Source of the DNA: an uncultured Desulfobulbaceae bacterium | GTDB taxonomy: Bacteria > Desulfobacterota > Desulfobulbia > Desulfobulbales > Desulfocapsaceae | NCBI GenBank assembly: GCA_937132035.1 | Contig: CAKZOA010000227.1 | Location: 1-42,947, forward strand | Direction of reading: 5' to 3' | DNA: 42,947 nucleotides | Shown: positions 8,175-22,467 of the stretch, piece by piece | How the letters are laid out: the number at the start of each line of letters is the position of its first letter | Position numbering within the stretch: position 1 is the stretch's first letter | Translations under genes and position numbers: made by a program | Notes under the pieces: generated by a model | What the model was told of the DNA's origin: nothing | The model's database searches: none | The model's input: only the letters and a program-made list of their open reading frames with translations

Positions 8175-8549
8175 TTAAGCGCCAACGGCCTTTTTGATGG
8201 CCCGAAGGACTTCTTCGATATTGTCAAGCTTGGAAACAACGGCGACCGGCTCAATGTCTTTCACCTCACGGGAGAGTTTTTCCGTATCGTAGCCGGTGAA
8301 GATGACGATGGGGATGCCGTAGAAATCACGTATTTGTCTGGCAGCCTCCAATCCGTTGAGGTTGCCGGAGAGGGCAATGTCCATGAGTATTACATCGGGG
8401 CGTTCTCGACCGGCGACCTCAACCGCTTCTTCACCGTTGATAATCACCTCGCCGACCGTGTAGCCGAAGGACTCCAGTTTTCGGGCCAGCATGACGCCGA
8501 CCAGGATCTCATCTTCGACGACCAGCACCTTTGGTTTTCTTGAGGTCAT
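8175..8549 (-). CDS. Single-domain response regulator (CheY-like)
   Basis: A 124-residue protein that is only a receiver domain. It has the acidic pocket VVEDE near residue 12, phospho-acceptor Asp57 in PDVILMDIAL, a Thr in VIFTGYD and the conserved Lys in VVSKLDN. The ATG overlaps the TGA of the upstream kinase gene by four bases (ATGA), so the two are translationally coupled and very likely a cognate pair. There is no DNA-binding or enzymatic output domain. It may relay phosphate to another protein or act by protein contact. The MDIALSGNLNGLEAA stretch is typical of regulators paired with HisKA_2/HWE-type kinases. Confidence 0.92.
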   Translation of the reverse strand: MTSRKPKVLVVEDEILVGVMLARKLESFGYTVGEVIINGEEAVEVAGRERPDVILMDIALSGNLNGLEAARQIRDFYGIPIVIFTGYDTEKLSREVKDIEPVAVVSKLDNIEEVLRAIKKAVGA

Positions 8550-11128
8550 AAGCGTTTGTGCAGTATGGGGTCGAGAAAACGGATGTGGTATGTCGTACCC
8601 CTGTCGCGTTCTACCTCGATTTCGCCTTTGAGCTGCATCTTTACCAGACCGGCGATGATAATGCCAGTGCCAAAGGAGGAGGTCGCCAGGATATCGATGT
8701 CTTCCGGCAGGCCGATGCCGTTATCGGCAATGATCAGGTGAAGATGATTGTTGTCAGAGCGTTTGGCGGTAACGGTGATTGTGCCACTGCGACCCTTTGG
8801 GAAGGCGTGTTTGATGGCATTGGTGATGATTTCGTTGGCTACAAGACCTATGGGCACGGCATGATCGATATCGATGGATATCGGCTCGGCCCGCAGGTCG
8901 AGGTCTATTGTGCTGTCGATCACCATGGAAGAGAGCAGCGACCTGGCGATATCATTGAGGTAGGAGCCCATGTCTATGCGATTGAGATTCTGGGCGGTGT
9001 AGAGCTTTTCATGGACAAGCGCCATTGAGCGGATACGGTTTTCCATTTCCTGGAAAATGGTACGCTGCTGCTCTCCATCGAGCTCCATTCGTTGCAGCTC
9101 GAGCATGGAGATGATGATGAGCATGTTGTTTTTAGTGCGATGGTGGATTTCCCGCAGGAGCACTTCTTTTTCCTGGAGCGATTTCTGCAGCTCCTCACCC
9201 TGTTCTTGCAGTTTCAGCTCTTTTTGGCGCAAACCGGTGACGTCGGTAATCGTACCGACCACTACCTTCTTGTCTTTCCAGGTGGTGGCCTTCGACCAGA
9301 CTTCACCAAAAAAGCGTGTACCGTCGGGACGGAGGCACTCGAGGACATACGGCGGAATGTTGACGCCCTGCTGCCGCAGCTTGATATTTGCCTCGACTTT
9401 GCCACGTTCCTCGGGGATGACCAGTTCGAGCGGATTTTTCCCGATGAGTGTCATTTTTGAGGTGTGAAATAATTTCTCGGCAAATGAGGAGTTGACGTAG
9501 CTGAGTTTGAAGTCCTCGACAATATATACGCCCGCCAGGGAGGATTCGATGGTGTCGCGGTACTTCTGTCTACTCAAGTGAAGAGCCTCGGAGACAATCT
9601 GCCTGCGTTCTATCTCGTCTTCCAGTCTGGTGACGGTTTTCTCGAGTTCCCGCTTTTGAAGCAATACTTCCTCGCTTCGCTTTGCCACTTCTTCTTCCAG
9701 ATAGCCGAAGTACGTCTGCTGCTGTTTTTGGGCGGCGCGCAGCTCTATCACCATGGAGTTGAAGGATGCCGCGAGAGTACCCGGTTCATCGTTGGTTGTC
9801 ACAGGACAGTGGACGTCTAAATTGCCGGCCGTCACCTGTTGAGTTGCAAGAGAAAGTCTCCGCAGCGGAGTAATCAGGTGTTTAATCAGCAGAAATATGA
9901 TGACAATGGAAATGCCGATGGTGGCAAGGGAAAAGACGACGCTGCGGATGGCCAGTTTCCCTATTGTCTGGTCGAGTTCGTCACGACCTGCCGTCACCGT
10001 TTCCAGCATGTCGCTTTGCCGAGCGACAACGCCGAAGATCCACTGATGTTTTGGCATTCTGCTGGTGACCACATAGTAGTTCTCGCCTTCCAGCGTTACT
10101 ATCCGTTGCTGCTCCTTCTCTTCGAGCAGAGACGTTGTAAGGTTTCTGACCTTCCCGGATTGTGATTGGCCGAGTAAAAGAGTCAGTCGATCGCTGGAAT
10201 ACCGATATTTCGAAGGGAAATGCTCGATGCCGAAAAGTGCGAAATACTTTTCGGGGAAAGCGATTACCCTGCCGTCACTATCCAGCAGGAAGGAAAACAA
10301 CAGCCATTTTTCATCTCCATCATTGTCGGGGGTGAGTATGTCGTCAACGACGTCTGTCAGGGGAATATCGATGCCGGTTATTCCACGAAATTGGCCGGTA
10401 TCATCATAGATCGGCGCACTGGCGGTGAGCATGAACCCGTCAACGACATCGTCTTTGTAGACGTTTGTCCAGCGCACATTTTCAGTGCGTTCTTCGCTGG
10501 CGGTAAAGATTGTCATCGGTTCGCCGTCGCGGAGGTCGAAAACCGACGATGGCGGAATTTCGGAGGCTGCCTTTTTGTAGTGTTCTCTTTCGGTGCAGTA
10601 CAGTCCGATACCGGAAGTGGTAATTGAGTGACTGGCAAGGACTTCGGGGTTTTCCGTGAGCACCCTCCTAAACAGCGGTGTCATATGGGTCAAAGCCCGC
10701 AGTTCTTCGCGGACTGGCTGGGAAATCTGTGAGTCTCCCCAATAAACTGTGGTCACCGGTGCTTTGAGATCATTGATATAATTGCCGGTAAGAGACGAGC
10801 GAAAAAGATCGTTGTGATAGAGGGGAGTGCCGGCATAGAGGTTGAGATCGTTGTAGATGGCCGTTGCCTGACTTCCCAGCATGGCGGCCGAGGCGGCAAT
10901 CCGGTCGAAATGATTTTGATAATGACTGGCCTTCTCCCGGGCAATTATCTGAAGTGAAGACAGTGTCTGGTGGGTGATATGGTCGCTGTGAATTTCAAGA
11001 GCCCTGTCGCCGTAGTCGCTGAGAGTGTGCAGAGATGACCAGGTAATGGGCACCACCGCCAGGATAACGACGGCAGTGAGCATGAGAAATAGTTTAGCTC
11101 CAAGATTTTCTTTAAGTATTTTTGTCAT
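8546..11128 (-). CDS. dCache-HAMP-PAS sensor kinase of the HisKA_2 type
   Basis: About 860 residues from the ATG at 11128; a second in-frame ATG ten codons upstream at 11158 is possible. Order: transmembrane helix (about 12-34), a large periplasmic sensor (about 40-355) containing GITGIDIPLTDV and typical of dCache domains, a second transmembrane helix, HAMP (LITPLRRLSLATQQVTAGNL), a coiled coil (about 455-510), PAS with EVWSKATTWK, then HisKA_2 with EIHHRTKNN (phospho-acceptor His663 immediately before Arg), and HATPase with VANEIITNAIKHAF and IADNGIGLPE. Cache domains usually bind small metabolites such as amino or carboxylic acids. It is coupled to the receiver gene that follows. Confidence 0.9.
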   Translation of the reverse strand: MTKILKENLGAKLFLMLTAVVILAVVPITWSSLHTLSDYGDRALEIHSDHITHQTLSSLQIIAREKASHYQNHFDRIAASAAMLGSQATAIYNDLNLYAGTPLYHNDLFRSSLTGNYINDLKAPVTTVYWGDSQISQPVREELRALTHMTPLFRRVLTENPEVLASHSITTSGIGLYCTEREHYKKAASEIPPSSVFDLRDGEPMTIFTASEERTENVRWTNVYKDDVVDGFMLTASAPIYDDTGQFRGITGIDIPLTDVVDDILTPDNDGDEKWLLFSFLLDSDGRVIAFPEKYFALFGIEHFPSKYRYSSDRLTLLLGQSQSGKVRNLTTSLLEEKEQQRIVTLEGENYYVVTSRMPKHQWIFGVVARQSDMLETVTAGRDELDQTIGKLAIRSVVFSLATIGISIVIIFLLIKHLITPLRRLSLATQQVTAGNLDVHCPVTTNDEPGTLAASFNSMVIELRAAQKQQQTYFGYLEEEVAKRSEEVLLQKRELEKTVTRLEDEIERRQIVSEALHLSRQKYRDTIESSLAGVYIVEDFKLSYVNSSFAEKLFHTSKMTLIGKNPLELVIPEERGKVEANIKLRQQGVNIPPYVLECLRPDGTRFFGEVWSKATTWKDKKVVVGTITDVTGLRQKELKLQEQGEELQKSLQEKEVLLREIHHRTKNNMLIIISMLELQRMELDGEQQRTIFQEMENRIRSMALVHEKLYTAQNLNRIDMGSYLNDIARSLLSSMVIDSTIDLDLRAEPISIDIDHAVPIGLVANEIITNAIKHAFPKGRSGTITVTAKRSDNNHLHLIIADNGIGLPEDIDILATSSFGTGIIIAGLVKMQLKGEIEVERDRGTTYHIRFLDPILHKRL

Positions 11129-11158
11129 GCAATCGGTGGTGCCTAAAGCGAACGGCAT

Positions 11159-11843: not shown

Positions 11844-12310
11844 TTAAGTAGGCTCATTTTGGAAGAATCCAAATTTCTTTGTCGCTTTGCAGCGTAGCCC
11901 CATCTCCTCCATAATGCGTGCGACACGAAGCCGGCTCACTTTCGAGAATACATCTTCATCGCGCAGGTCCCCAGCAACCAGCGGACTACCGACCATCACC
12001 TTATGAGCGCTGAAGATAGATAGAGCTTTTTTAGGATACCTCATTCTATCTCAATGCCTTTGATCTTCTTTTCCAGTTCTCTGATCCTTTTTTCTTGATC
12101 CGTCAGGCCCTCACGACCATTTCCCGAAAAGGCAAGTTCCTCTTTGGCTCTCAGTTCGCTTCGCCATGTATAAAGCAGGTTTTTAGAGATGCCATGGTCA
12201 CCCGCAACGTCTTTCACCGATCGCCCTGGTTCTTCAGGTAGTCGAACAGCATTGCGTTTGAAATCAGGACCGTATTTTCTTCTCTGAACACTCATATCTT
12301 TCTCCTGCAA
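11844..12310 (-). mobile_element. Remnant of an IS3-family insertion sequence
   Basis: The remnant holds an orfA followed by a truncated orfB on the minus strand. OrfA (12041-12310) has the helix-turn-helix of IS3-type transposases (YGPDFKRNAVRL, SVKDVAGDHGISKNLLYTW) and a leucine-zipper-like end (KRIRELEKKIKG). It ends in a TGA where the family usually has an Arg codon (ER.ILKK), just before a slippery CTAAAAAAG. OrfB resumes in the -1 frame as KKALSIFS, then jumps to AHKVMVGSPLVAGDLRDE and VARIMEEMGLRCKATKKF, so roughly 60 codons are missing between these. The rest of orfB, with the catalytic DDE residues, is gone. No convincing terminal inverted repeats were found. The element cannot move by itself. 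Confidence 0.8.
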
Positions 12311-12550: not shown

Positions 12551-13669
12551 ATGAAAAGTGAAAACGTTTCTAAAACTGGACCAGACTTCCTGCAGTACAA
12601 TCTAAAAGATAAACGTCGCATTGCACCAGCCGTTGTAGGTGATCCAAACCTCGGCCCCTTCAAAATGCTGCCCGGCACTTGGGCAAATATTCGGGTTTCT
12701 GATCGTCGAAACGACCCCGAGGGCCCTAACCGCTTTTTTGGCCAAGGGGGCAGCCCGCTGAATGGCCGTGGCTGGAATATCATCGCGTTACCCTTTATGC
12801 GGGATGAAGACGGACCACCTTATCGGGTTTTAATGAACCAATATAACGAAGTTTTGCATTTTGACACCGTTGATGACAAAGTTCCAAACCGCGGAATCAA
12901 TTTTGGCAGCGGCGAAAATACCGACCAGTCTGTAGCCGCCCTCGATTATACCCAGCAAATCAGACAGATAAAAGCCGATGACGACGCCGGAAGCGGCAAG
13001 GCTCTCGATGATGAACTCCCAATACACCATGAGCCGGGTTTTTTCCTGCACATGAAAGAACAGACCGTGCAGGACTTTACCATAGCGCGTCTGGCGACTA
13101 TCCCACACGGCAATGCGGCCAATGCAGTTGGCAAATTTACTGAGTTTGACGGACCGCCAACGATTCCAGAGCTCAGCGCCTTGCCCGAAGGTGCCTCAAC
13201 CTTCGATATTGTAGATGCCGTGAAATCGGACTTCCCCATTGAGGCCGAACGAGACTATCTCGCCCCGTATCGGCACTATATAGACAACCCGTTCTTAGGC
13301 CAGGAAAGCGCACCGTTTCCCGGCTTTCACCCTTTGAACGTTAATAACCTTATCAAGCTCGGAGTAGATGGTGAGGCCTCCAAGATACAACGAACAACAG
13401 AGCTCGTTTTAGACACCGACGTGATGGAGGGTGGAATCAGCAATATTCCGTTTATCGAGCGCCAGGCTGACGCGGCACTTATGCGCAGCACCTTCTGGAT
13501 CATGGAATTGGACGAAGAAGGTCCTTTTGGTGAACAGCGTCTGCAACTTGCCTATTCGCAGTTTATTTTTCTTGATTTCTTCCAGCGACGTGACGGTCGC
13601 GACGGCCTGATACGCTGGCCACACGTTTCTATCAATTTGATGGAGAAGATAGCTCCGCCATCAAACTAA
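12551..13669 (+). CDS. FABP/nitrobindin-like beta-barrel protein (possible heme or lipid binder)
   Basis: A 372-residue protein without a signal peptide; GGAGG at 12538-12542 supports the ATG at 12551. Several spaced motifs resemble the small lipocalin/FABP-like barrels of the nitrobindin (THAP4 C-terminal) group: LGPFKMLPGTWAN at the start of the barrel, GRGWNIIALPF, YNEVLHFDTV...VPNRG, IHHEPGFFLHM and IARLATIPHGNA. It is about twice the usual length of such barrels; the second half (about 215-372) is unrecognised. Members bind heme or hydrophobic ligands. As first gene of a cassette with an oxidoreductase-esterase fusion it could carry a hydrophobic substrate. The fold call comes from motif memory and needs a structure search. 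Confidence 0.5.
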   Translation: MKSENVSKTGPDFLQYNLKDKRRIAPAVVGDPNLGPFKMLPGTWANIRVSDRRNDPEGPNRFFGQGGSPLNGRGWNIIALPFMRDEDGPPYRVLMNQYNEVLHFDTVDDKVPNRGINFGSGENTDQSVAALDYTQQIRQIKADDDAGSGKALDDELPIHHEPGFFLHMKEQTVQDFTIARLATIPHGNAANAVGKFTEFDGPPTIPELSALPEGASTFDIVDAVKSDFPIEAERDYLAPYRHYIDNPFLGQESAPFPGFHPLNVNNLIKLGVDGEASKIQRTTELVLDTDVMEGGISNIPFIERQADAALMRSTFWIMELDEEGPFGEQRLQLAYSQFIFLDFFQRRDGRDGLIRWPHVSINLMEKIAPPSN

Positions 13670-13689
13670 TGCAGGTGGCTGGCGGCAAT

Positions 13690-13719
13690 CCTCTCTGCGC
13701 ATGAAATTGCACAGAGAGG
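13690..13719 (+). terminator. Hairpin between first and second cassette genes
   Basis: CCTCTCTG (13690-13697) pairs perfectly with CAGAGAGG (13712-13719) around a 14-base loop that can add two more GC pairs. A T-rich stretch (TTGATCATTTTTG) follows. It lies 18 bases after the first gene's stop and could act as a terminator, an attenuator or an mRNA-processing site. Confidence 0.5.
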
Positions 13720-13803
13720 TTGATCATTTTTGAAGCTTCCAAACCAAGGGCTGATCTACGCTCTTTTGTGACAGAGTGTACAAATTTCGCGAGGAGGTAT
13801 GCC

Positions 13804-15408
13804 ATGAGCAGTATTCGTTCACCATTTCTCGGTCCCATTGTCGGTCACACAACCTCTACCTCATGCCGTCTTTGGGTACAGGCCGGCGATCCAAACGATC
13901 AGGGAATAACACTCTCCGAAAACAGGCGAACAATCGGTATCATCACCATTCTTGACAGACAGAAGCAGCCTGTCTACTCAGCGGGAAACACAGCCTATTT
14001 CCGGCTGCACCGGGAATTTGATCGTACGGGAACCTACAACATCGGCATTGACCCGACCACTGGTGGCGGACCGCCATTCGAACTGAAACCAAATACAAAA
14101 TACACCGTGCGATTGGGTACCCTTACACTTGATGATGCATATCCTAATGAAACGAACGTTTCGGATGAAGAGCTTCTCAAACGGCTTCCCCCGGCAACAG
14201 TATGGGTTGATGACCTCATCAATCTTCCGGAAAAGATGAGTGAGGCAAGTTTCAGAACCTTTCCTGGAAACGGCAATGGACTCAGTTTTATGTTCGGCTC
14301 CTGTCATTATCCCGGTCTCTTCTGGAAGAAAAAGCTCTCCGGCCGGATTTTCAAGTCCATGATCGATCAGATTTCCAAAACCCGATTCGGGCGGAAACCA
14401 CAGTTGAGCCTCATGGTGGGAGACCAGGTCTATGCGGACATGCTGAACCGACATGTGCCGGTGGGGCTTGCCGATACCTTTGCGGAATTTCAGTCGAGGT
14501 ACCATGAAGCCTTTAGCACGCCTAACCTTCGCACGTTGATGAATCAGCTGCCGACGTACATGATTCTTGATGACCATGAAATCGAGGACAACTGGACCCA
14601 GGACCGAATCAGCAGCAGCAGAAGCAAGCGGGTACTGTTTAATCTGGCGATGGGCGCCTATATGAGCTATCAGTGGAGTCATGGTCCCCGTAATTATGAG
14701 GGCCGGGTCTTTTACTCCTTTTCCGTTGGCGACTATCCCTTTTTTGTTCTTGATCAGCGAACACAGCGGTTCAAAGATGATGACGCAGGACTTGAGGACA
14801 ACCATCTCCTTGGACGGCCCTCGCAAGATCCGAAGAATGAGCCCGGGCAACTCGAATATCTGCTCGACTGGCTGCGCAGATTGAAAAATGATCCACGTCC
14901 CAAATTTATCGTCTCTCCCTGTGTGTTCGTGCCCAATCCGGTGGTGACGGCACGGGGCGACAAGCAGAAAGAGAAAAGCGATTCCTGGCCTGCCTTTCCG
15001 GCGACCAGGCGACGGATTCTTTCAACAATCCTCGAGCATAACATTCAGAATGTGGTCTTCCTCTCGGGTGATATTCACTGCTCAAATGTTGCTGAAATCA
15101 GGTTTGACGGCAATTCAGAAGCCAGGAAAATTAAAGCTTTCTCCATCGTCAGTTCAGCCTTTTACTGGCCGTTTTGGTTTGCTGATGGTGAACCAAGCAA
15201 CTATGTGCATGATTCCCATCAGGAGAATGACACCTTCATTGTTGATAAAGAAAAAGGATTAACCATGGACTATCAGGCGACCAATTTTACTCAAAAAGAC
15301 AACTTTTGCCGGGTAGATGTCGACTGGGAGAATCGCAAGGTCATCGAAGTGAAGGCGATCGGCTACGATGGCGACGAACTCACCAAATCAACGCTGCAGC
15401 TTGCCTGA
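13804..15408 (+). CDS. PhoD-like metallophosphoesterase
   Basis: A 534-residue protein beginning at an ATG with a strong GAGGAGG six bases upstream (13791-13797); the frame extends 28 codons further upstream but that part is not supported. The PhoD metal-site motifs are all present: FMFGSCHYPG, LMVGDQVYADM, YMILDDHEIEDNW and VFLSGDIHCSNV. An N-terminal beta domain (GPIVGHTTSTSCRLWVQAG) matches the usual PhoD accessory domain. No Tat or Sec signal peptide is visible, unlike secreted alkaline phosphatase D, so it probably works in the cytoplasm. PhoD-family enzymes hydrolyse phosphomonoesters or phosphodiesters. Its substrate within this cassette is unknown. Confidence 0.87.
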   Translation: MSSIRSPFLGPIVGHTTSTSCRLWVQAGDPNDQGITLSENRRTIGIITILDRQKQPVYSAGNTAYFRLHREFDRTGTYNIGIDPTTGGGPPFELKPNTKYTVRLGTLTLDDAYPNETNVSDEELLKRLPPATVWVDDLINLPEKMSEASFRTFPGNGNGLSFMFGSCHYPGLFWKKKLSGRIFKSMIDQISKTRFGRKPQLSLMVGDQVYADMLNRHVPVGLADTFAEFQSRYHEAFSTPNLRTLMNQLPTYMILDDHEIEDNWTQDRISSSRSKRVLFNLAMGAYMSYQWSHGPRNYEGRVFYSFSVGDYPFFVLDQRTQRFKDDDAGLEDNHLLGRPSQDPKNEPGQLEYLLDWLRRLKNDPRPKFIVSPCVFVPNPVVTARGDKQKEKSDSWPAFPATRRRILSTILEHNIQNVVFLSGDIHCSNVAEIRFDGNSEARKIKAFSIVSSAFYWPFWFADGEPSNYVHDSHQENDTFIVDKEKGLTMDYQATNFTQKDNFCRVDVDWENRKVIEVKAIGYDGDELTKSTLQLA

Positions 15409-15452
15409 TTTGAGCGCTGACATACCCCTGGTCTTTTATCTGGAGGTCTGGC

Positions 15453-18400
15453 ATGAAAAGAATATCTTCTCCCATTGCGGAAATGAAACAGCACTATACC
15501 GCTGTTGTCGTCGGCTCGGGTTATGGGGGCTCAATTGCCGCCTCAAGGCTTGCTCGAGCCGGACAAAAGATTTGTGTACTGGAAAGAGGCAGGGAGATTC
15601 TTCCCGGTGAATATCCGGATGATGAACTCTCGGCTGCAGGTGATTTTCAAGTCGACCTCCCCAGGAAACTGCTGGGCAACCCGGCAGGACTGTACGATTT
15701 CAGGGTCAACGAAGATATCAATGTATTTCTTGGCTGCGGTCTTGGCGGGACATCATTAGTGAACGCCAACGTAGCGCTGGAGCCGGAACCTCGGGTGTTT
15801 GAGGATGCCAGGTGGCCTCAAAAACTGAGGGAAGACGCCGACGGACTCCGAAGGGGTTTCAAAAGAGCTCTACAAAAGCTTGAGGCTGTACCATATCCAG
15901 CAGACAGTCCCGTTCTTACCAAATTTGAGCAGCTGCAGGCCTCGAGCAAAAAGGTGGGGGGGAAGGTGTACCATCCACCTATTGCCGTGACGTTTAAAGA
16001 CGGGCCGAACGCGACCGGGGTCGAGCAGAAAGGCTGCAACCTCTGTGGAGACTGTGTGTCCGGGTGTAACCATGGTTCCAAGAATACGGTTCTCATGAAC
16101 TATCTCCCTGATTCCCGGGAGTATGGTGCCGAGATTTTCACCTGCGTTGAGGTCCTGCGGGTTGAAGCGAGTGTCGGTGAATGGCGTGTGTATTACCGAG
16201 TAATTGATGGAGGAGCAGACAAGTTCTCGGCACCTGAAAGATTCATTACCGCAGATCATGTGATACTGGCTGCGGGAACACTCGGTTCCACTGAGATACT
16301 GCTGCGCTCTGCCGCCAGGGGTCTTTCTCTATCGAACAGACTTGGTCATAATTTTACCGGCAACGGTGATGTGCTGGGTTTTGCCTACAACGCAGACTCT
16401 CCGGTACACGGTATCGGTTTTGGCAGCCGGGAGCCTGAGCAGATGATGCCTGTGGGACCAACGATAAGCGGTATCATTGACCTTCGTAATCAACCGGATC
16501 TGGAGAAGGGAATGGTCATCGAAGAGGGCGCAATCCCCGGAGCTCTGTCTTCCATTATGCCCGCCGCCTTTGCAGCGGCTGCAAGAGCTGCCGGTACGGA
16601 TACCGACGTCGGGGATATTGTCCAGGAGAAGACGCGGGAGGTCGACAGCCTGGTGAACGGTGCCTACCGCGGCGCCATCAACCACACCCAGACTTTTCTG
16701 GTCATGGCCCATGATGACGGTGCGGGACAGCTTGTACTCGAGGACGACAAGGTCAGGGTTCACTGGCCGGAGGTCGGAGAGCAGAGCCTTTTTACCCGTA
16801 TTAACAAAAAACTCAAAGAGGCGACTGCGGCAATTGGCGGCACCTATGTTCCCAATCCGACCTGGAATCCGGTTCTCGGTCACGATCTGATCACCGTTCA
16901 CCCTCTTGGAGGCAGCATTATGGCTGAGAATGGTGCCCATGGGGTGGTCAACCACATCGGTCAGGTTTTCAACAGCAGCGGCGATGACAGTGTACACCCC
17001 GGACTCTATGTCATGGACGGGGCGATAATTCCACGTCCTCTGGGAGTCAATCCGTTGCTTACCATCTCAGCTCTTGCCGAACGCAATGTCGAGCTGTTGG
17101 CTAAGGCGCAGGGCTGGCAGATAGATTGGAGCACTATGCCGCGTCCGCTGCCACCTGAGCATCCGGTGAAGCCGGGACTGCGCTTTACCGAACGCATGAC
17201 GGGGCATGTGCTTATCGGCGAAGTTCTTGATTTTGAACAGGCAGAGAAAAAGGCGCGTAGGACGGGATCCGACTGCTCCTTCATACTGACTGTGACGACT
17301 GATGATCTGATCACGATGCTTAGGGACGAGCCGCACAGTGCAATGCTGTCCGGGACTGTATCGTTGCCGGCGCTCTCGACCGCACCGCTTATGGTTAGTG
17401 ATGGTGACTTTCAACTGCTCAGTGCATCGCCTGATAGGATTCAAACCAAAGAGATGGTATACACCATGACTCTTACTTCAGAAGATGGAAAGAAATATCA
17501 GTTCCATGGGAAGAAGACAATTCATCAAGACCAGGGAGCCGATCTTTACGCGGATACGACCACACTCTTTGTAACCATCTTCTCGGAAGACGGCAGGCAG
17601 CAGCTGGGCAGGGGGATCCTGCGCATCCTTACCGAAGATCTGTTGCGGCAGCTTGGTACTCTGCAGGTAACAGGGGAGACTGATCCGGCACGCAGGCTCC
17701 AATTGGTGGCGGAGTTTGGCCACTTTTTTACCGGCTCTCTTTTTGACATCTACGGCGGGGTGTTTGCCCGGCCGACGCTGTTTAACCCGGATGCACCGGC
17801 TCGAAAGCAGCGTCAGCTTCGACTTTCAGCTCCTGAAATACACGGGATAACCGCACAGGATGGGACAATACTGCGGCTGACCCGTTATCGGGGTGGCAGC
17901 AAAGGCCCTGTATTGCTCAGTCACGGCCTTGGCGTCTCTAGTCGAATTTTCAGCCTCGATTCCATTGACACCAACCTCTGTGAGTTCCTTTTCGCCCACG
18001 GTTATGACCTCTGGCTGCTTGATTATCGCTCAAGCATCGAACTTGATGCGTCGCACAGGCCGCACACTGGTGATGACATCGCCCTGCAGGATTATCCAGC
18101 GGCAGTGGACAAAATTCTACTGGAGACCGGCGTGGATGGTCTGCATGCACTGGTTCACTGCTTTGGTTCGACGACTTTTTTTATGGCTATGCTTGCCGGC
18201 CTTAAAGGGGTTCACTCCGCCATCTGCTCACAGATTGGCCCGCACGTTCTGACACCGCCGGTAACGGCTCTGAAGTCCGGCCTATACCTCCCTGACGCCT
18301 TGCGTTTTCTCGGGGTAAACTCGCTGACGGCCTATGCAGACACCCACGACGACTGGACCGAGAAACTGTTCAACAAACTGGTCGCCTTGCAGCCCCTGGC

Positions 18401-18839
18401 CTATGAGGAACAGTGCAAGAGCCCTGTCTGTCATCGCATAACCTTTTTATATGGTCTGCTTTACGAGCATGATAACCTCAACAGGGCCACCCACGAAACC
18501 CTGCACGAGCTGTTCGGGGTTGCGACAATTGATGCCCTCGATCATCTGGCGACAATGGTGCGAAAGGGCAGGATTGTGAATAGAGACGGCGAAGACGTGT
18601 ACCTGCCGCAGCTCAAGCGGCTGGCATTTCCCATCACCTTCATCCACGGTGCCGAAAACAGCTGTTACCTGCCGGAATCCACCGCGCAGTCCTATGAGGA
18701 GTTGCGTAAAGCCAACGGCAGTGCGCTGTACCAGCGGCACCTACTTGCCAACTACGGTCATATTGACTGTATTTTCGGAGAGCAGGCGAGCAGAGACGTG
18801 TACCCATTGATGCTGAACCATCTTGAACGTTTCAGCTAA
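15453..18839 (+). CDS. GMC oxidoreductase (cholesterol-oxidase-like) fused to alpha/beta hydrolase
   Basis: A very long (1128-residue) two-enzyme protein; GGAGG at 15441-15445 supports the start. Residues about 15-560 form an FAD-dependent GMC/cholesterol-oxidase-like enzyme: dinucleotide motif VVVGSGYGGS, LGGTSLVNANV, a ferredoxin-like Cys195-x2-Cys198-x2-Cys201-x3-Cys205 cluster, catalytic-region His483 in VHPLGGS, and the closing segment YVMDGAIIPRPLGVNPLLT. Residues about 575-785 form a middle domain beginning ERMTGHVLIGE. Residues about 795-1128 form an alpha/beta hydrolase with LLSHGLGVSS and LLDYRSS. Its nucleophile elbow reads LVHCFGS, placing Cys903 where Ser is usual, and YGHIDCIFG carries the likely catalytic His. 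The fusion suggests that oxidation of an alcohol is linked to hydrolysis of an ester or lactone. The substrate is not proven. Confidence 0.85.
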   Translation: MKRISSPIAEMKQHYTAVVVGSGYGGSIAASRLARAGQKICVLERGREILPGEYPDDELSAAGDFQVDLPRKLLGNPAGLYDFRVNEDINVFLGCGLGGTSLVNANVALEPEPRVFEDARWPQKLREDADGLRRGFKRALQKLEAVPYPADSPVLTKFEQLQASSKKVGGKVYHPPIAVTFKDGPNATGVEQKGCNLCGDCVSGCNHGSKNTVLMNYLPDSREYGAEIFTCVEVLRVEASVGEWRVYYRVIDGGADKFSAPERFITADHVILAAGTLGSTEILLRSAARGLSLSNRLGHNFTGNGDVLGFAYNADSPVHGIGFGSREPEQMMPVGPTISGIIDLRNQPDLEKGMVIEEGAIPGALSSIMPAAFAAAARAAGTDTDVGDIVQEKTREVDSLVNGAYRGAINHTQTFLVMAHDDGAGQLVLEDDKVRVHWPEVGEQSLFTRINKKLKEATAAIGGTYVPNPTWNPVLGHDLITVHPLGGSIMAENGAHGVVNHIGQVFNSSGDDSVHPGLYVMDGAIIPRPLGVNPLLTISALAERNVELLAKAQGWQIDWSTMPRPLPPEHPVKPGLRFTERMTGHVLIGEVLDFEQAEKKARRTGSDCSFILTVTTDDLITMLRDEPHSAMLSGTVSLPALSTAPLMVSDGDFQLLSASPDRIQTKEMVYTMTLTSEDGKKYQFHGKKTIHQDQGADLYADTTTLFVTIFSEDGRQQLGRGILRILTEDLLRQLGTLQVTGETDPARRLQLVAEFGHFFTGSLFDIYGGVFARPTLFNPDAPARKQRQLRLSAPEIHGITAQDGTILRLTRYRGGSKGPVLLSHGLGVSSRIFSLDSIDTNLCEFLFAHGYDLWLLDYRSSIELDASHRPHTGDDIALQDYPAAVDKILLETGVDGLHALVHCFGSTTFFMAMLAGLKGVHSAICSQIGPHVLTPPVTALKSGLYLPDALRFLGVNSLTAYADTHDDWTEKLFNKLVALQPLAYEEQCKSPVCHRITFLYGLLYEHDNLNRATHETLHELFGVATIDALDHLATMVRKGRIVNRDGEDVYLPQLKRLAFPITFIHGAENSCYLPESTAQSYEELRKANGSALYQRHLLANYGHIDCIFGEQASRDVYPLMLNHLERFS

Positions 18840-18856
18840 CCTCGCGGAGATACCAC

Positions 18857-20491
18857 ATGAAAACAGGGGCGCAACCTGAGCAGGCGGCTGGACACTCCTC
18901 AGCGGACGGGGGGAAAACAAAACACGGGCGCAGACTGGGAGATCTGATTTTTGGTTTCCTGATATATGGATTCCTTGGGATGCTATTTGTCTGGAACAAC
19001 CAAACGGCCCGTGAGTTCGTGATCAACAACAGGTATATTTTTGCCATTGGCCTGACTATGGCCGTAGCGGCCCTTGTTTTTGCCTGGGTAAAGCAGGATG
19101 TGGTGAATGCCTCTATTAAGAAACAGGTTGCCATCATCTTGTTTATTGTCATGCCCGTTCTGCTGCTTTTGGTTGGAGCGGTAGTGTTTTTCCCCCTGCA
19201 GGTGCAGATCATAATCCTGCGGATAGTCTTCCTTGCCATCGCCTGTCTGCTGCCTGCGGTGATGTACTACCTCTTCATCGCCAGCAGAAAATCGAGTCTG
19301 CTCCAGGAGTTTTTCACTAACCTTGCGCGGCTCGGTTTGTTCGATCACCAGTCATACTTGGGCCCAGACGGTGAGGTGGAGGAATCAGAGCTTGAGCGGC
19401 GTATGCGAGTTCTCTCCTATGTGCAAAAATTTGAGGCGGTTTATGGGCCAATACCAGAAGAAATGACGGAGAATCTGTTGCACATTACCACGAAGAACAA
19501 CGTTAAGGTGGAGCATAAGATGGCCCGCTACACCTCCGACGTAGGAGGTTACTTCTCGCCTGAAACGGCAATTCCGGTGGTGGTGGCTTCGCTGCTCATA
19601 GGACTCGGCTGGCTGCTTACATTGACTCCCTGGGATTTGTCGGCCATCGACACAGCCGCTGGCGAGGACCTTCGGCTTAGCCTGGTACTTCATGTGCAGT
19701 CGGTTCCGGTCCACTTTGCTTTTCTCGGCGCGTATTTCTTCTCCCTCCAGTCTCTGTTTCGCCGTTATGTACAAAAGGACCTGCGGGCTAGCGCCTACAT
19801 AGCAGTTGTTATGCGTATACTGCTTGCGATTCTGGGTACCTGGGTAGTCCTGGAGATTGCCGAGGGGCTGCCGACCCAATGGAACATCTCGACTGCTGAC
19901 GGGGCCGGCCTTGTCGTGGTGAGTTTCGTCGTCGGCGCGTTCCCTCCGGTAGCCTGGCAGGTTATCACTTCGGCCTTTAGAACAATCACCGGCGCCAGAT
20001 ATTTTGTGCCCAGCCTGCGAAGCGTGATGCCGGTGAGCGATCTCGACGGTCTCACTGTCTGGCACCAGGCCAGGCTTGAAGAAGAAGATATTGAAAATGT
20101 CCCCAATATGGCGAGTGTCGATATGGTGGACCTGCTGCTTAACACCAAAATACCCGCGGACCGTGTCGTCGACTGGGTTGATCAGGCAATTCTTTATACC
20201 CAGCTTGGATGCGAGGACAATAAAGTCCGATCCGGAGATGACAGAGGCGATGCCCCTGGTACGCGAGACCTTCTCCGACGTCATGGCATCAGGACCGCTA
20301 GCTCATTGATACTTGCCTACAAACAGGCTCTTGTTCGGGATGATCTCGACTCGTTTCTGAAGATGTTGCCTTCCTCTGCCAGGCCACGGCTCCTGGCCAT
20401 TGTCGATACCCTGGGCAACAACCCCAATCTATCGTTGATACAGCGCTGGAAACAGTGGGTGATAAGTAGTCGCTTTGTAAGGAGTGCTTAA
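18857..20491 (+). CDS. Polytopic membrane protein of unknown family
   Basis: A 544-residue protein starting 17 bases after the fusion enzyme, with GGAG at 18844-18847. About eight transmembrane helices are visible in two blocks of four: roughly 29-48, 55-75, 88-112 and 114-138, then roughly 233-252, 273-295, 308-328 and 341-362. A charged, probably cytoplasmic segment (about 140-230, with GDGEVEESELERRMRVLSY read through the frame as DGEVEESELERRM) separates the blocks. The soluble C-terminus (about 385-544) carries two repeat-like helical motifs (IENVPNMASVDMVDLLL and LLRRHGIRTASSLILAYK) that resemble helix-hairpin-helix-type pairs. I do not recognise the family. As last gene of the cassette it may anchor or supply the enzymes at the membrane. 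Confidence 0.75.
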   Translation: MKTGAQPEQAAGHSSADGGKTKHGRRLGDLIFGFLIYGFLGMLFVWNNQTAREFVINNRYIFAIGLTMAVAALVFAWVKQDVVNASIKKQVAIILFIVMPVLLLLVGAVVFFPLQVQIIILRIVFLAIACLLPAVMYYLFIASRKSSLLQEFFTNLARLGLFDHQSYLGPDGEVEESELERRMRVLSYVQKFEAVYGPIPEEMTENLLHITTKNNVKVEHKMARYTSDVGGYFSPETAIPVVVASLLIGLGWLLTLTPWDLSAIDTAAGEDLRLSLVLHVQSVPVHFAFLGAYFFSLQSLFRRYVQKDLRASAYIAVVMRILLAILGTWVVLEIAEGLPTQWNISTADGAGLVVVSFVVGAFPPVAWQVITSAFRTITGARYFVPSLRSVMPVSDLDGLTVWHQARLEEEDIENVPNMASVDMVDLLLNTKIPADRVVDWVDQAILYTQLGCEDNKVRSGDDRGDAPGTRDLLRRHGIRTASSLILAYKQALVRDDLDSFLKMLPSSARPRLLAIVDTLGNNPNLSLIQRWKQWVISSRFVRSA

Positions 20492-21102: not shown

Positions 21103-22467
21103 ATGAAATTTTCCTACACTCACCCGTTGAAACGAAGTAGGTGCATTACACTAAAGATCTGTCGATATGCATCGTTGTTCATTGCAGTTCTGTTTTTTCC
21201 ACTGATGCTTTCGGCGGCATCGTTGCGAATAGAAGGCGAACGCGCCTGGCTTAAAGCTGAGCATGAGCCTATTTTTGCGGTACTGCAGCTCTTTGAACAG
21301 CGTGGGGTGGAAGTGTTCATCGATCCATCGATTCAGCTGCAGCGCATATCCGGTACCTGGAAAAACGTTGAGATCGGCTGGCTAATCGACCAACTGGCAA
21401 GCCCACACAGTCATATGCTTGAATGGAGAGTGGAGAAAAGTCCTCTCGGTGATCTTTTTCAACTCTCCTCCATACGAATTTTTCCGGAAGGCAAGGCATC
21501 TTCAGCCCGTCCCCTATCCTCTTCAGGAAAGGTGCTAGATGTTGTTGAAGGCGAGAGTGGTATAAAATATATCCGTGGAGAGATACTTGTAGGCTTTAAG
21601 CAAGATTCCACTATCAATGATTTAAACACACTACTTCAGAGGCTCAATGGAACCGTGATTGAAGTGATCGATCCACCCGGTTTATATCGCATTAAACTAG
21701 GCGATGACATGCCGGTTGAAGAAGCTATGAGAATTGCACAGGCACATGAGGGCATTATGGCTTCCGAACCCAATCTGGCATTTCCGACCATCGAGAGCAA
21801 CATCCTTCCTTTAAGCGAAATCGGTGAAGGAATAAACCTCAGCCTGGCTCCTGGTGAGACCGCGATTGCCGTACTCGACTCCGGCCTTGATCCTGATTAT
21901 GTAGACTATCCTTTTATTCGAGGCACCTACGATGCAATTGATCCAAACGCGGAAATCAGCGATCCAACGGGACACGGCACCCTGACCGCTCTTATAGCGG
22001 CTGGTGCCGTTACTCCTCTTGGCGCGAATGCTGCCGAAAGCGGAATTCAGGTACTGGCGATTCGTACCTTCGACAAAAACGGCATGACCAGCTCAGACAC
22101 CATCCTGCGAGCCCTCAAATATGCCGCCGACTCCGGCGTAAAAATAATCAGTATGAGCTGGGGATCGGAAATCGCCAGTCAATTTATGGAAACCGCCATG
22201 GAGTCTGCCAGCCAAAACGGTATAACGCTTTATGCAGCCGCAGGCAACGAGCCGACCGGCGAACCTGTGTATCCGGCTGGATATGACTCGGTAATCGCTG
22301 TGGGCGGCTTGAATCCGGACAGAAGCCGTTGGCAGGACAGCAACTACGGGAATTTTGTCGAACGCTATGAACCAGCCCTGGCCAACTTTAACGATCTATC
22401 CTATGCAGGCACATCTATCGCCAGCCCCTATGCTGCTTTCAAGGCTGCTCAGAAAGCGTCGGAATAG
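21103..22467 (+). CDS. Secreted S8 (subtilisin-like) serine protease
   Basis: A 454-residue protein with a Sec signal peptide (hydrophobic CRYASLFIAVLFFPLMLSA). Residues about 38-105 resemble an STN-type periplasmic module (WKNVEIGWLIDQL). Residues about 150-220 look like a fervidolysin-type propeptide (GEILVGFKQD, PPGLYRIKLGDDM). The peptidase domain carries the triad: Asp259 in AVLDSGLD, His291 in GHGTLTALIAAG and Ser438 in AGTSIASPYAAF; AAAGNEP supplies the oxyanion-hole Asn. The domain ends very soon after the Ser helix, shorter than many subtilases. It is likely exported to the periplasm or outside. It starts divergently from the BCCT/UspA debris. Confidence 0.87.
   Translation: MKFSYTHPLKRSRCITLKICRYASLFIAVLFFPLMLSAASLRIEGERAWLKAEHEPIFAVLQLFEQRGVEVFIDPSIQLQRISGTWKNVEIGWLIDQLASPHSHMLEWRVEKSPLGDLFQLSSIRIFPEGKASSARPLSSSGKVLDVVEGESGIKYIRGEILVGFKQDSTINDLNTLLQRLNGTVIEVIDPPGLYRIKLGDDMPVEEAMRIAQAHEGIMASEPNLAFPTIESNILPLSEIGEGINLSLAPGETAIAVLDSGLDPDYVDYPFIRGTYDAIDPNAEISDPTGHGTLTALIAAGAVTPLGANAAESGIQVLAIRTFDKNGMTSSDTILRALKYAADSGVKIISMSWGSEIASQFMETAMESASQNGITLYAAAGNEPTGEPVYPAGYDSVIAVGGLNPDRSRWQDSNYGNFVERYEPALANFNDLSYAGTSIASPYAAFKAAQKASE

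Follow-up and report, generated by a model that had tools for sequence, protein, structure and literature searches.

Which of the genes gathered around a bacterial oxidase-hydrolase fusion work together with it, and on what kind of substrate? The question is raised by a stretch of 42,947 nucleotides (nt) from an uncultured Desulfobulbaceae bacterium (assembly GCA_937132035.1, contig CAKZOA010000227.1, forward strand), hereafter the window, in which positions 12551-20491 hold four long open reading frames (ORFs), all on the + strand and of 372, 562, 1128 and 544 amino acids (aa) according to the ORF list and its translations. They encode a barrel protein, a PhoD-like metallophosphoesterase, a fusion of a GMC oxidoreductase to a hydrolase, and a membrane protein. 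A sequence-only reading had proposed that the four form one cassette for the processing of a membrane lipid or of a sterol- or hopanoid-like alcohol, the PhoD-like enzyme being a member of unclear role. The most far-reaching answer, to which slightly less than even weight is given, is that the hydrolase part of the fusion would represent a clade with the acid-lipase fold and papain-like Cys-His-Asn acyl-thioester chemistry, in which nucleophile and third residue differ jointly from Ser-Asp-His. It would cooperate with the cholesterol-oxidase-like flavin site of the fusion and with a phosphoesterase dedicated to it, in a lipid-alcohol pathway so far undescribed that would have spread across phyla horizontally.

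A cholesterol-oxidase-like flavoenzyme joined to an acid-lipase-fold hydrolase

Judged by its sequence, the fusion protein resembles an esterase linked to a GMC alcohol oxidase, lying within the GMC and alpha/beta-hydrolase superfamilies, outside the cholesterol oxidases by the NCBIfam cut-off and outside the serine acid lipases by its triad. Pfam finds GMC_oxred_N and GMC_oxred_C (PF00732, PF05199) over their cut-offs, together with Abhydrolase_1, and an AlphaFold2 model calculated from 40 aligned sequences has a mean predicted local distance difference test (pLDDT) score of 88.6; both bear out the earlier description of a cholesterol-oxidase-like flavoenzyme fused to an esterase-like domain. 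Cholesterol oxidases come out on top in a Foldseek search with this model (E 9.0e-30), and VIA aligns residues 11-554 with the large subunit of fructose dehydrogenase (Z 37.9, 459 residues, 3.0 Å) and residues 13-554 with cholesterol oxidase (Z 36.0, 448 residues, 2.6 Å).

With the GMC cholesterol oxidases of Streptomyces (1b4v, 4u2l) the protein shares the fold that binds flavin adenine dinucleotide (FAD) over residues 13-555 (Z about 36), and the profile alignment (E 4.5e-41) sets the His of HPLGG (H483) and the Asn of an NP motif (N533) on the corresponding residues, which we take to be catalytic in cholesterol oxidase; the H447 and N485 mutant entries among the cholesterol oxidases listed as structure matches agree with this. 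Both residues are invariant in 44 fusion sequences. The fusion differs from cholesterol oxidase, however, in its identity of only about 25%, in its score against the equivalog NF058674 (136 bits, which misses the cut-off of 850), in two further domains and in an extra CxxCGDCxxGC motif. This motif is invariant in 44 of 44 fusions, its cysteines are missing in the aligned cholesterol oxidase, and its spacing resembles that of iron-sulphur binding motifs; it may hold such a cluster.

Between the oxidase and the hydrolase lies an eight-stranded antiparallel beta-domain, whose best matches (Foldseek E 0.041, VIA Z 9.0) are with Cap15, hoefavidin and designed barrels, and for which Pfam gives nothing better than E 0.014 among 39 members, the fusion of locus L089 being excluded from the alignment. 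The model weakly suggests an all-beta-barrel arrangement; no relative is claimed among the listed folds, and the resemblance identifies no ligand. On a deltaproteobacterial contig (L032:2254-4650) the frame of the fusion stays open for about 2.4 kb further upstream with no Pfam match, which may be an N-terminal extension or chance. A second, shorter GMC oxidoreductase without the hydrolase domain is found near the fusion at L012:9036-10490, L021:15450-17012, L025:4088-5434, L090:8191-9990 and L100:8195-9988. On plasmid lbp2 of Leptospira borgpetersenii (L012:5504-14299) a second GMC-like stretch comes after the fusion, and an annotated sphingomyelin phosphodiesterase lies about 3.5 kb further along.

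A Cys-Asn-His triad in the hydrolase domain

The hydrolase domain has the fold of the acid lipases and lacks their Ser-Asp-His triad. VIA superposes residues 784-1128, an alpha/beta-hydrolase fold, on lysosomal acid lipase over 320 residues (Z 34.1, 2.5 Å) and on gastric lipase over 321 (Z 33.2, 2.7 Å); profile alignments link the domain to the two (6v7n, 1hlg; E 2.5e-10 and 3.4e-10), and the triad positions coincide. Against human gastric lipase, Cys903 falls on the nucleophile Ser (GHSQG versus HCxGS), Asn1069 on the acid Asp (GGKD versus GxxN) and His1103 on the catalytic His (NHLD versus GHID), the three lipase positions being those that we take to form its triad. In the AlphaFold2 model one strand runs up to residue 902 and a helix begins at 904, with Cys903 between the two in a nucleophile-elbow-like position; Asn1069 and His1103 come after the final pair of strands in the domain (1061-1066 and 1093-1098). 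Unlike the acid lipases, then, the fusion carries Cys-Asn-His, is bacterial, is joined to another enzyme and has no export signal that could be seen.

These residues are strongly retained: Cys in 43, Asn in 44 and His in 43 of 44 aligned fusions, the lone exception being L089, which has lost both Cys and His. All three are also kept in the relatives L015, L017, L019 and L091 and in two unfused actinobacterial hydrolases, one of them within a Rhodococcus polyketide cluster. We infer that the Cys903-Asn1069-His1103 site is catalytic. The Rhodococcus protein (L125:5944-7017) is encoded on a plasmid of Rhodococcus pyridinivorans, in a type I polyketide cluster that includes a thioester reductase and a crotonyl-CoA carboxylase/reductase.

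Across two phyla, 545 genomes yielded 39 loci, of which a profile reading gave 12 with Cys-Asn-His, three of which (L127, L158, L160) are in genomes already within the fusion set, and 14 with Ser-Asp-His; the rest comprise 1 with Cys-Asn and the His unread, 10 with unread positions, 1 Ser-Asn-His that is probably one residue out of register and 1 Cys-Asp-His in which the nucleophile region is misaligned. A tree of 36 rows was built from the window and the 39 loci (40 rows) minus 11, namely 10 in which positions of the triad were unread and L150, apparently misaligned around the nucleophile, plus 7 further rows; L153, read as 'N' by the profile and as GSND by eye, was assigned to Ser-Asp-His, and L161, with Cys, Asn and an unread His, to Cys-Asn-His. 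The Cys-Asn-His proteins form one side of a single branch (support 100/100, present in 200/200 bootstrap trees), so that in these sequences a deep division separates the Cys-Asn pair from Ser-Asp, in a tree that gives no order of which state is older.

A nucleophile-elbow Cys is common to this domain and to dienelactone hydrolase, polyhydroxyalkanoate synthase and some thioesterases. Those enzymes, in contrast, use Asp as the third residue where the fusion has Asn, and they are neither its closest relatives by sequence nor among the listed folds. According to PMC9825947, a few alpha/beta-hydrolase groups have a Cys nucleophile with the triad positions preserved, so that there is nothing new in a Cys site by itself. 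The new element would be the Cys-Asn pair on an acid-lipase fold: in the literature searched, mostly outside subscription journals, we did not find a description of this Cys-His-Asn clade, of the fusion or of its pairing with a phosphoesterase.

A phosphoesterase recurs beside the fusion

The PhoD-like protein was correctly recognised from its sequence: it scores 103.5 bits against PF09423 (cut-off 27) and can be aligned to alkaline phosphatase D (2yeq) across the metal-site motifs DDHE and GDIH/GDVH. It differs from that enzyme in that hydropathy reveals no N-terminal hydrophobic segment of the kind an export signal would have, and in that it remains below the cut-off of NF058638 (54 versus 1000 bits).

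Neighbours were scanned at 91 loci (80 from contigs, 7 from plasmids, and those of G132, G148, G329 and the window) with profiles of recurring neighbours, the PhoD profile being built without an Ensifer tri-domain protein; many contigs end within the scanned flank. Counts refer to 88 loci, as L017, L019 and L020 were dropped because their fusion score was below threshold, and to 47 groups, which were defined manually on the basis of record titles so that each named genus and each metagenome-assembled genome forms a group. A metallophosphoesterase on the same strand lies within 3 kb of the fusion at 61 of the 88 loci and in 23 of the 47 groups, the latter being the safer count because 34 of the 88 loci are from Pseudomonas. 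As a background, 240 Pfam Metallophos matches were counted in 20 genomes of about 132 Mb, or about 1.8 per Mb.

The family of the partner changes from locus to locus. It is PhoD in the window, L018, L028 and L049, a divergent PhoD in L021, L071 and L075, and elsewhere a calcineurin-like protein of one of three profile groups, on whose representatives Pfam was run; Pfam support for the group cal125 is weak (E 0.0016 in L026, none in L016). In Sorangium the upstream gene is a PF04185 phosphoesterase (E 1.1e-53), and three loci have a neighbour matching a metallo-beta-lactamase profile. The order varies too, PhoD preceding the fusion in the window and following it in L018, and in Ensifer (L017) a distant GMC-hydrolase protein carries PhoD as a C-terminal fusion. 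PhoD and the fusion are also paired in G132, Methyloprofundus and Nitrosomonas. By sequence comparison the phosphoesterase-fusion pair thus recurs across phyla, with the phosphoesterase family swapped. The PhoD-like enzyme, which had seemed the odd one out, is in fact of the most conserved partner type, a phosphoesterase adjoining the fusion.

Putative heme proteins and the membrane protein

The barrel protein had been read as lipocalin-like and as holding a hydrophobic ligand. The family searches do not support this: it passes the curated NCBIfam cut-off of heme_bind_FMP (NF040572; 257.3 bits), and no lipocalin family matches it at E up to 1 in Pfam and NCBIfam, where a weak match to THAP4_heme-bd (E 0.2) was obtained; no sequence match was found in the PDB. 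It is longer than most aligned members of the FMP family and has inserted segments. H159, H186 and H358, invariant in 8 aligned members, are only candidates for heme ligands. Among 41 genomes, 11 contain an FMP match at E up to 0.001 and 6 contain one over the cut-off, the genome of the window being included in both counts, and in 11 FMP-bearing loci of other records neither the fusion nor PhoD was a neighbour.

At other loci the heme protein near the fusion is of a different kind. At 42 of the 88 loci and in 8 of the 47 groups, a gene for a RoxA-like di-heme protein is present no more than 5 kb from the fusion; such di-heme peroxidase partners occur in Pseudomonas (in L038 over the cut-off of NF040606), Chromobacterium, Acidobacteria and Ignavibacteria, and the family profile detects none in the window. 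The RoxA-like PA2077 and PA2078 of P. aeruginosa are described in PMC4496055 as a fatty-acid dioxygenase and a diol synthase, and their action on fatty acids would fit a lipid substrate in the RoxA-bearing loci.

The last gene of the set encodes a polytopic membrane protein, as had been stated and as its hydropathy segments indicate, and it is nearly an orphan in sequence searches: no Pfam or NCBIfam family matches it, no relative besides itself was found in 97 genomes and none in plasmids, and 395 genomes of the phylum gave one weak match besides itself (L110). In Chromobacterium amazonense (L102:7842-10205) an FMP gene is divergent from a relative of this membrane protein that adjoins it (26% over 166 aa, E 6e-8 when just the two sequences are compared). 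No such adjacency exists at the ten further FMP-bearing loci that were inspected, and the link between the two genes is a lead, not a finding.

Distribution and horizontal transfer

The full-length fusion is absent from all 27 relatives' genomes searched within the genus, family and order, in which five matches cover the FAD-binding motif only. Across 395 genomes of the phylum, that of the window included, it was found in one other, G132, whose fusion is 59% identical and is directly followed downstream by a PhoD of 64% identity; G148 has its two halves in separate reading frames that lie next to each other, and in G329 the GMC part alone is present. A scan of genome contigs, from which 80 loci were kept out of at least 507 confirmed relatives, extends the range to Acidobacteria, Ignavibacteria, Caldithrix, Anaerolineae, Cyanobacteria, Myxobacteria, Actinobacteria, Bacteroidota and Proteobacteria, and plasmid-borne fusions add Azospirillum, Leptospira, Rhizobium, Persicobacter, Bernardetia and Variovorax. 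Spread by viruses was rejected, as none of the 36 viral stretches that matched a search pattern encodes a relative.

Since the fusion is patchily distributed, is missing in the 27 relatives and has a transposase remnant upstream of its gene set, the module has probably been acquired horizontally. Among relatives, an Ada-like gene that flanks the set was found in G001, G009 and G012 and a flanking histidine kinase in G002, G003, G009 and G010; no clean empty site was found in the stretches fetched around them.

Gene layout and genomic setting

The common strand, the Shine-Dalgarno sites and the short gaps noted earlier were all recovered: GGAGG-like sites precede the starts of the four genes, and the gaps are of 134, 44 and 17 nt. 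The first of these depends on the start of the PhoD gene, whose longest ORF opens at TTG 13720 (13720-15408, 562 aa) and which most likely begins at ATG 13804, preceded by AGGAGG, with a product of 534 aa. Hydropathy gives an N-terminal hydrophobic stretch to only one of the four products, the membrane protein.

Positions of the gene set, the parts of the fusion protein and the adjoining transposase remnant in the window
Feature	Position	Strand	Basis or remarks
FMP-family heme-binding barrel protein, 372 aa	12551..13669	+	NF040572, 257 bits, cut-off 150
PhoD-like metallophosphoesterase, 534 aa	13804..15408	+	PF09423, E 1.6e-29
GMC-hydrolase fusion, 1128 aa	15453..18839	+	Pfam, AlphaFold2 model, Foldseek/VIA
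GMC / cholesterol-oxidase-like FAD domain, residues 1-555	15453..17117	+	H483 (HPLGG), N533, CxxCGDCxxGC at 195-205
Inter-domain region with eight-stranded antiparallel beta-domain (about 575-740), no family	17118..17804	+	pLDDT 87.4 (beta-domain modelled alone)
Acid-lipase-fold hydrolase, residues 784-1128	17802..18839	+	Cys903-Asn1069-His1103 in Ser-Asp-His positions
Polytopic membrane protein, 544 aa	18857..20491	+	Hydropathy segments; near orphan
Transposase OrfA-type remnant (HTH_Tnp_1)	12044..12295	-	PF01527, E 6e-18; directly upstream of the gene set

The OrfA-type remnant is followed by a stop-ridden OrfB-like sequence. A histidine kinase and response regulator pair at 8175-11158 (- strand) has side-by-side relatives in G002, of the same genus, and a subtilase with a fervidolysin-type prodomain lies downstream of the set, at 21103-22467. 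A role as a defence system was considered and dropped, as none of the PADLOC-DB families of anti-phage defence matches the four proteins.

Proposed function and alternatives

It is tentatively proposed, at a level of belief somewhat below the balance point, that the phosphoesterase, the oxidase-lipase fusion and a heme partner form a lipid-alcohol oxidation module, probably of horizontal origin. The phosphoesterase would free an alcohol from a phosphate ester or a lipid head group, and the FAD domain would oxidise it, giving H2O2 or passing the electrons on. The Cys domain would form a thio-acyl enzyme and hydrolyse or transfer the acyl group of the same lipid, and the heme protein, an FMP barrel in the window and a RoxA-like di-heme peroxidase elsewhere, would use or remove the peroxide.

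Several results weigh against this proposal. No same-strand metallophosphoesterase lies within 3 kb of the fusion in 24 of the 47 groups, so that on sequence evidence the pair is common and not obligate, and the contrast that speaks for the pair, with a metallophosphoesterase in the outer part of the same flanks at 4 of the 88 loci, is biased in its favour by the derivation of the phosphoesterase profiles from near-fusion genes. The barrel and membrane genes adjoin the fusion in the window alone among the 91 loci (tblastn, phmmer and profiles), for which reason a conserved cassette of four genes was rejected; the co-occurrence envisaged earlier holds for the phosphoesterase-fusion pair and not for the set. 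Promoter-like and terminator-like counts in the set (7 and 8) are not above those of shuffled sequences (7.6 and 10.2), and a single transcript of the four genes is thus unsupported. The model of the fusion contains no FAD, lipid or heme.

The roles could be distributed differently in a fatty-acid oxylipin pathway: hydroxy-lipids would arise from a heme (per)oxygenase and be oxidised by the GMC domain, with the Cys domain transferring or freeing the acyl chain. The RoxA-like neighbours and the fatty-acid enzymes of P. aeruginosa speak for it; 39 of the 47 groups, however, have no RoxA-like gene inside 5 kb, and the window carries an FMP barrel instead, a family for which we know of no lipid oxygenation. 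This pathway is considered unlikely.

Distinctly unlikely is a chance neighbourhood of unrelated genes joined through mobile DNA, for which the transposase remnant and the lack of any link of the barrel and membrane genes to the fusion outside the window might be cited. All four genes share their strand with short gaps, and the recurrence of PhoD with the fusion in G132, of the same phylum, and in Methyloprofundus and Nitrosomonas implies that at least these two genes belong together.

Sterol or hopanoid processing, in which the lipase-like domain hydrolyses an ester and the cholesterol-oxidase-like domain of the same chain then oxidises the hydroxyl, draws on the nearest solved folds, with cholesterol oxidase among them as well as lysosomal acid lipase/cholesteryl ester hydrolase. 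A hopene/squalene cyclase is over the family cut-off in 16 of 36 fusion-bearing genomes; no match is found, however, in 19 of them, among which are the genome of the window itself (93% complete) and three from Pseudomonas and Chromobacterium. Because of these 19 genomes, hopanoids are not favoured as the general source of substrate; lipid alcohols or their esters stay plausible in view of the closest folds. Exogenous sterols may be a substrate under this explanation. Fructose dehydrogenase, choline oxidase and fungal alcohol oxidases give fold scores about equal to that of cholesterol oxidase, and the phosphoesterase partner is left unexplained, which makes the explanation highly doubtful.

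No more credible is the idea that the hydrolase domain is a non-catalytic, lipid-binding relic whose Cys and Asn record lost activity: exchange of Ser for Cys generally breaks lipase activity, according to PMC6642262, yet the near-complete retention of Cys, Asn and His in the fusions, their presence in distant or unfused relatives, and the joint loss of Cys and His in the lone exception argue against it.

Significance

Entries now annotated as 'alpha/beta fold hydrolase' or 'GMC oxidoreductase' belong to one conserved multi-domain family with typical partners. The recurring phosphoesterase offers a handle on the substrate, and the Pseudomonas carriers make the module testable. Beyond this, a natural clade in which Cys and Asn apparently replace Ser and Asp on the same fold would provide a ready-made comparison of the two.

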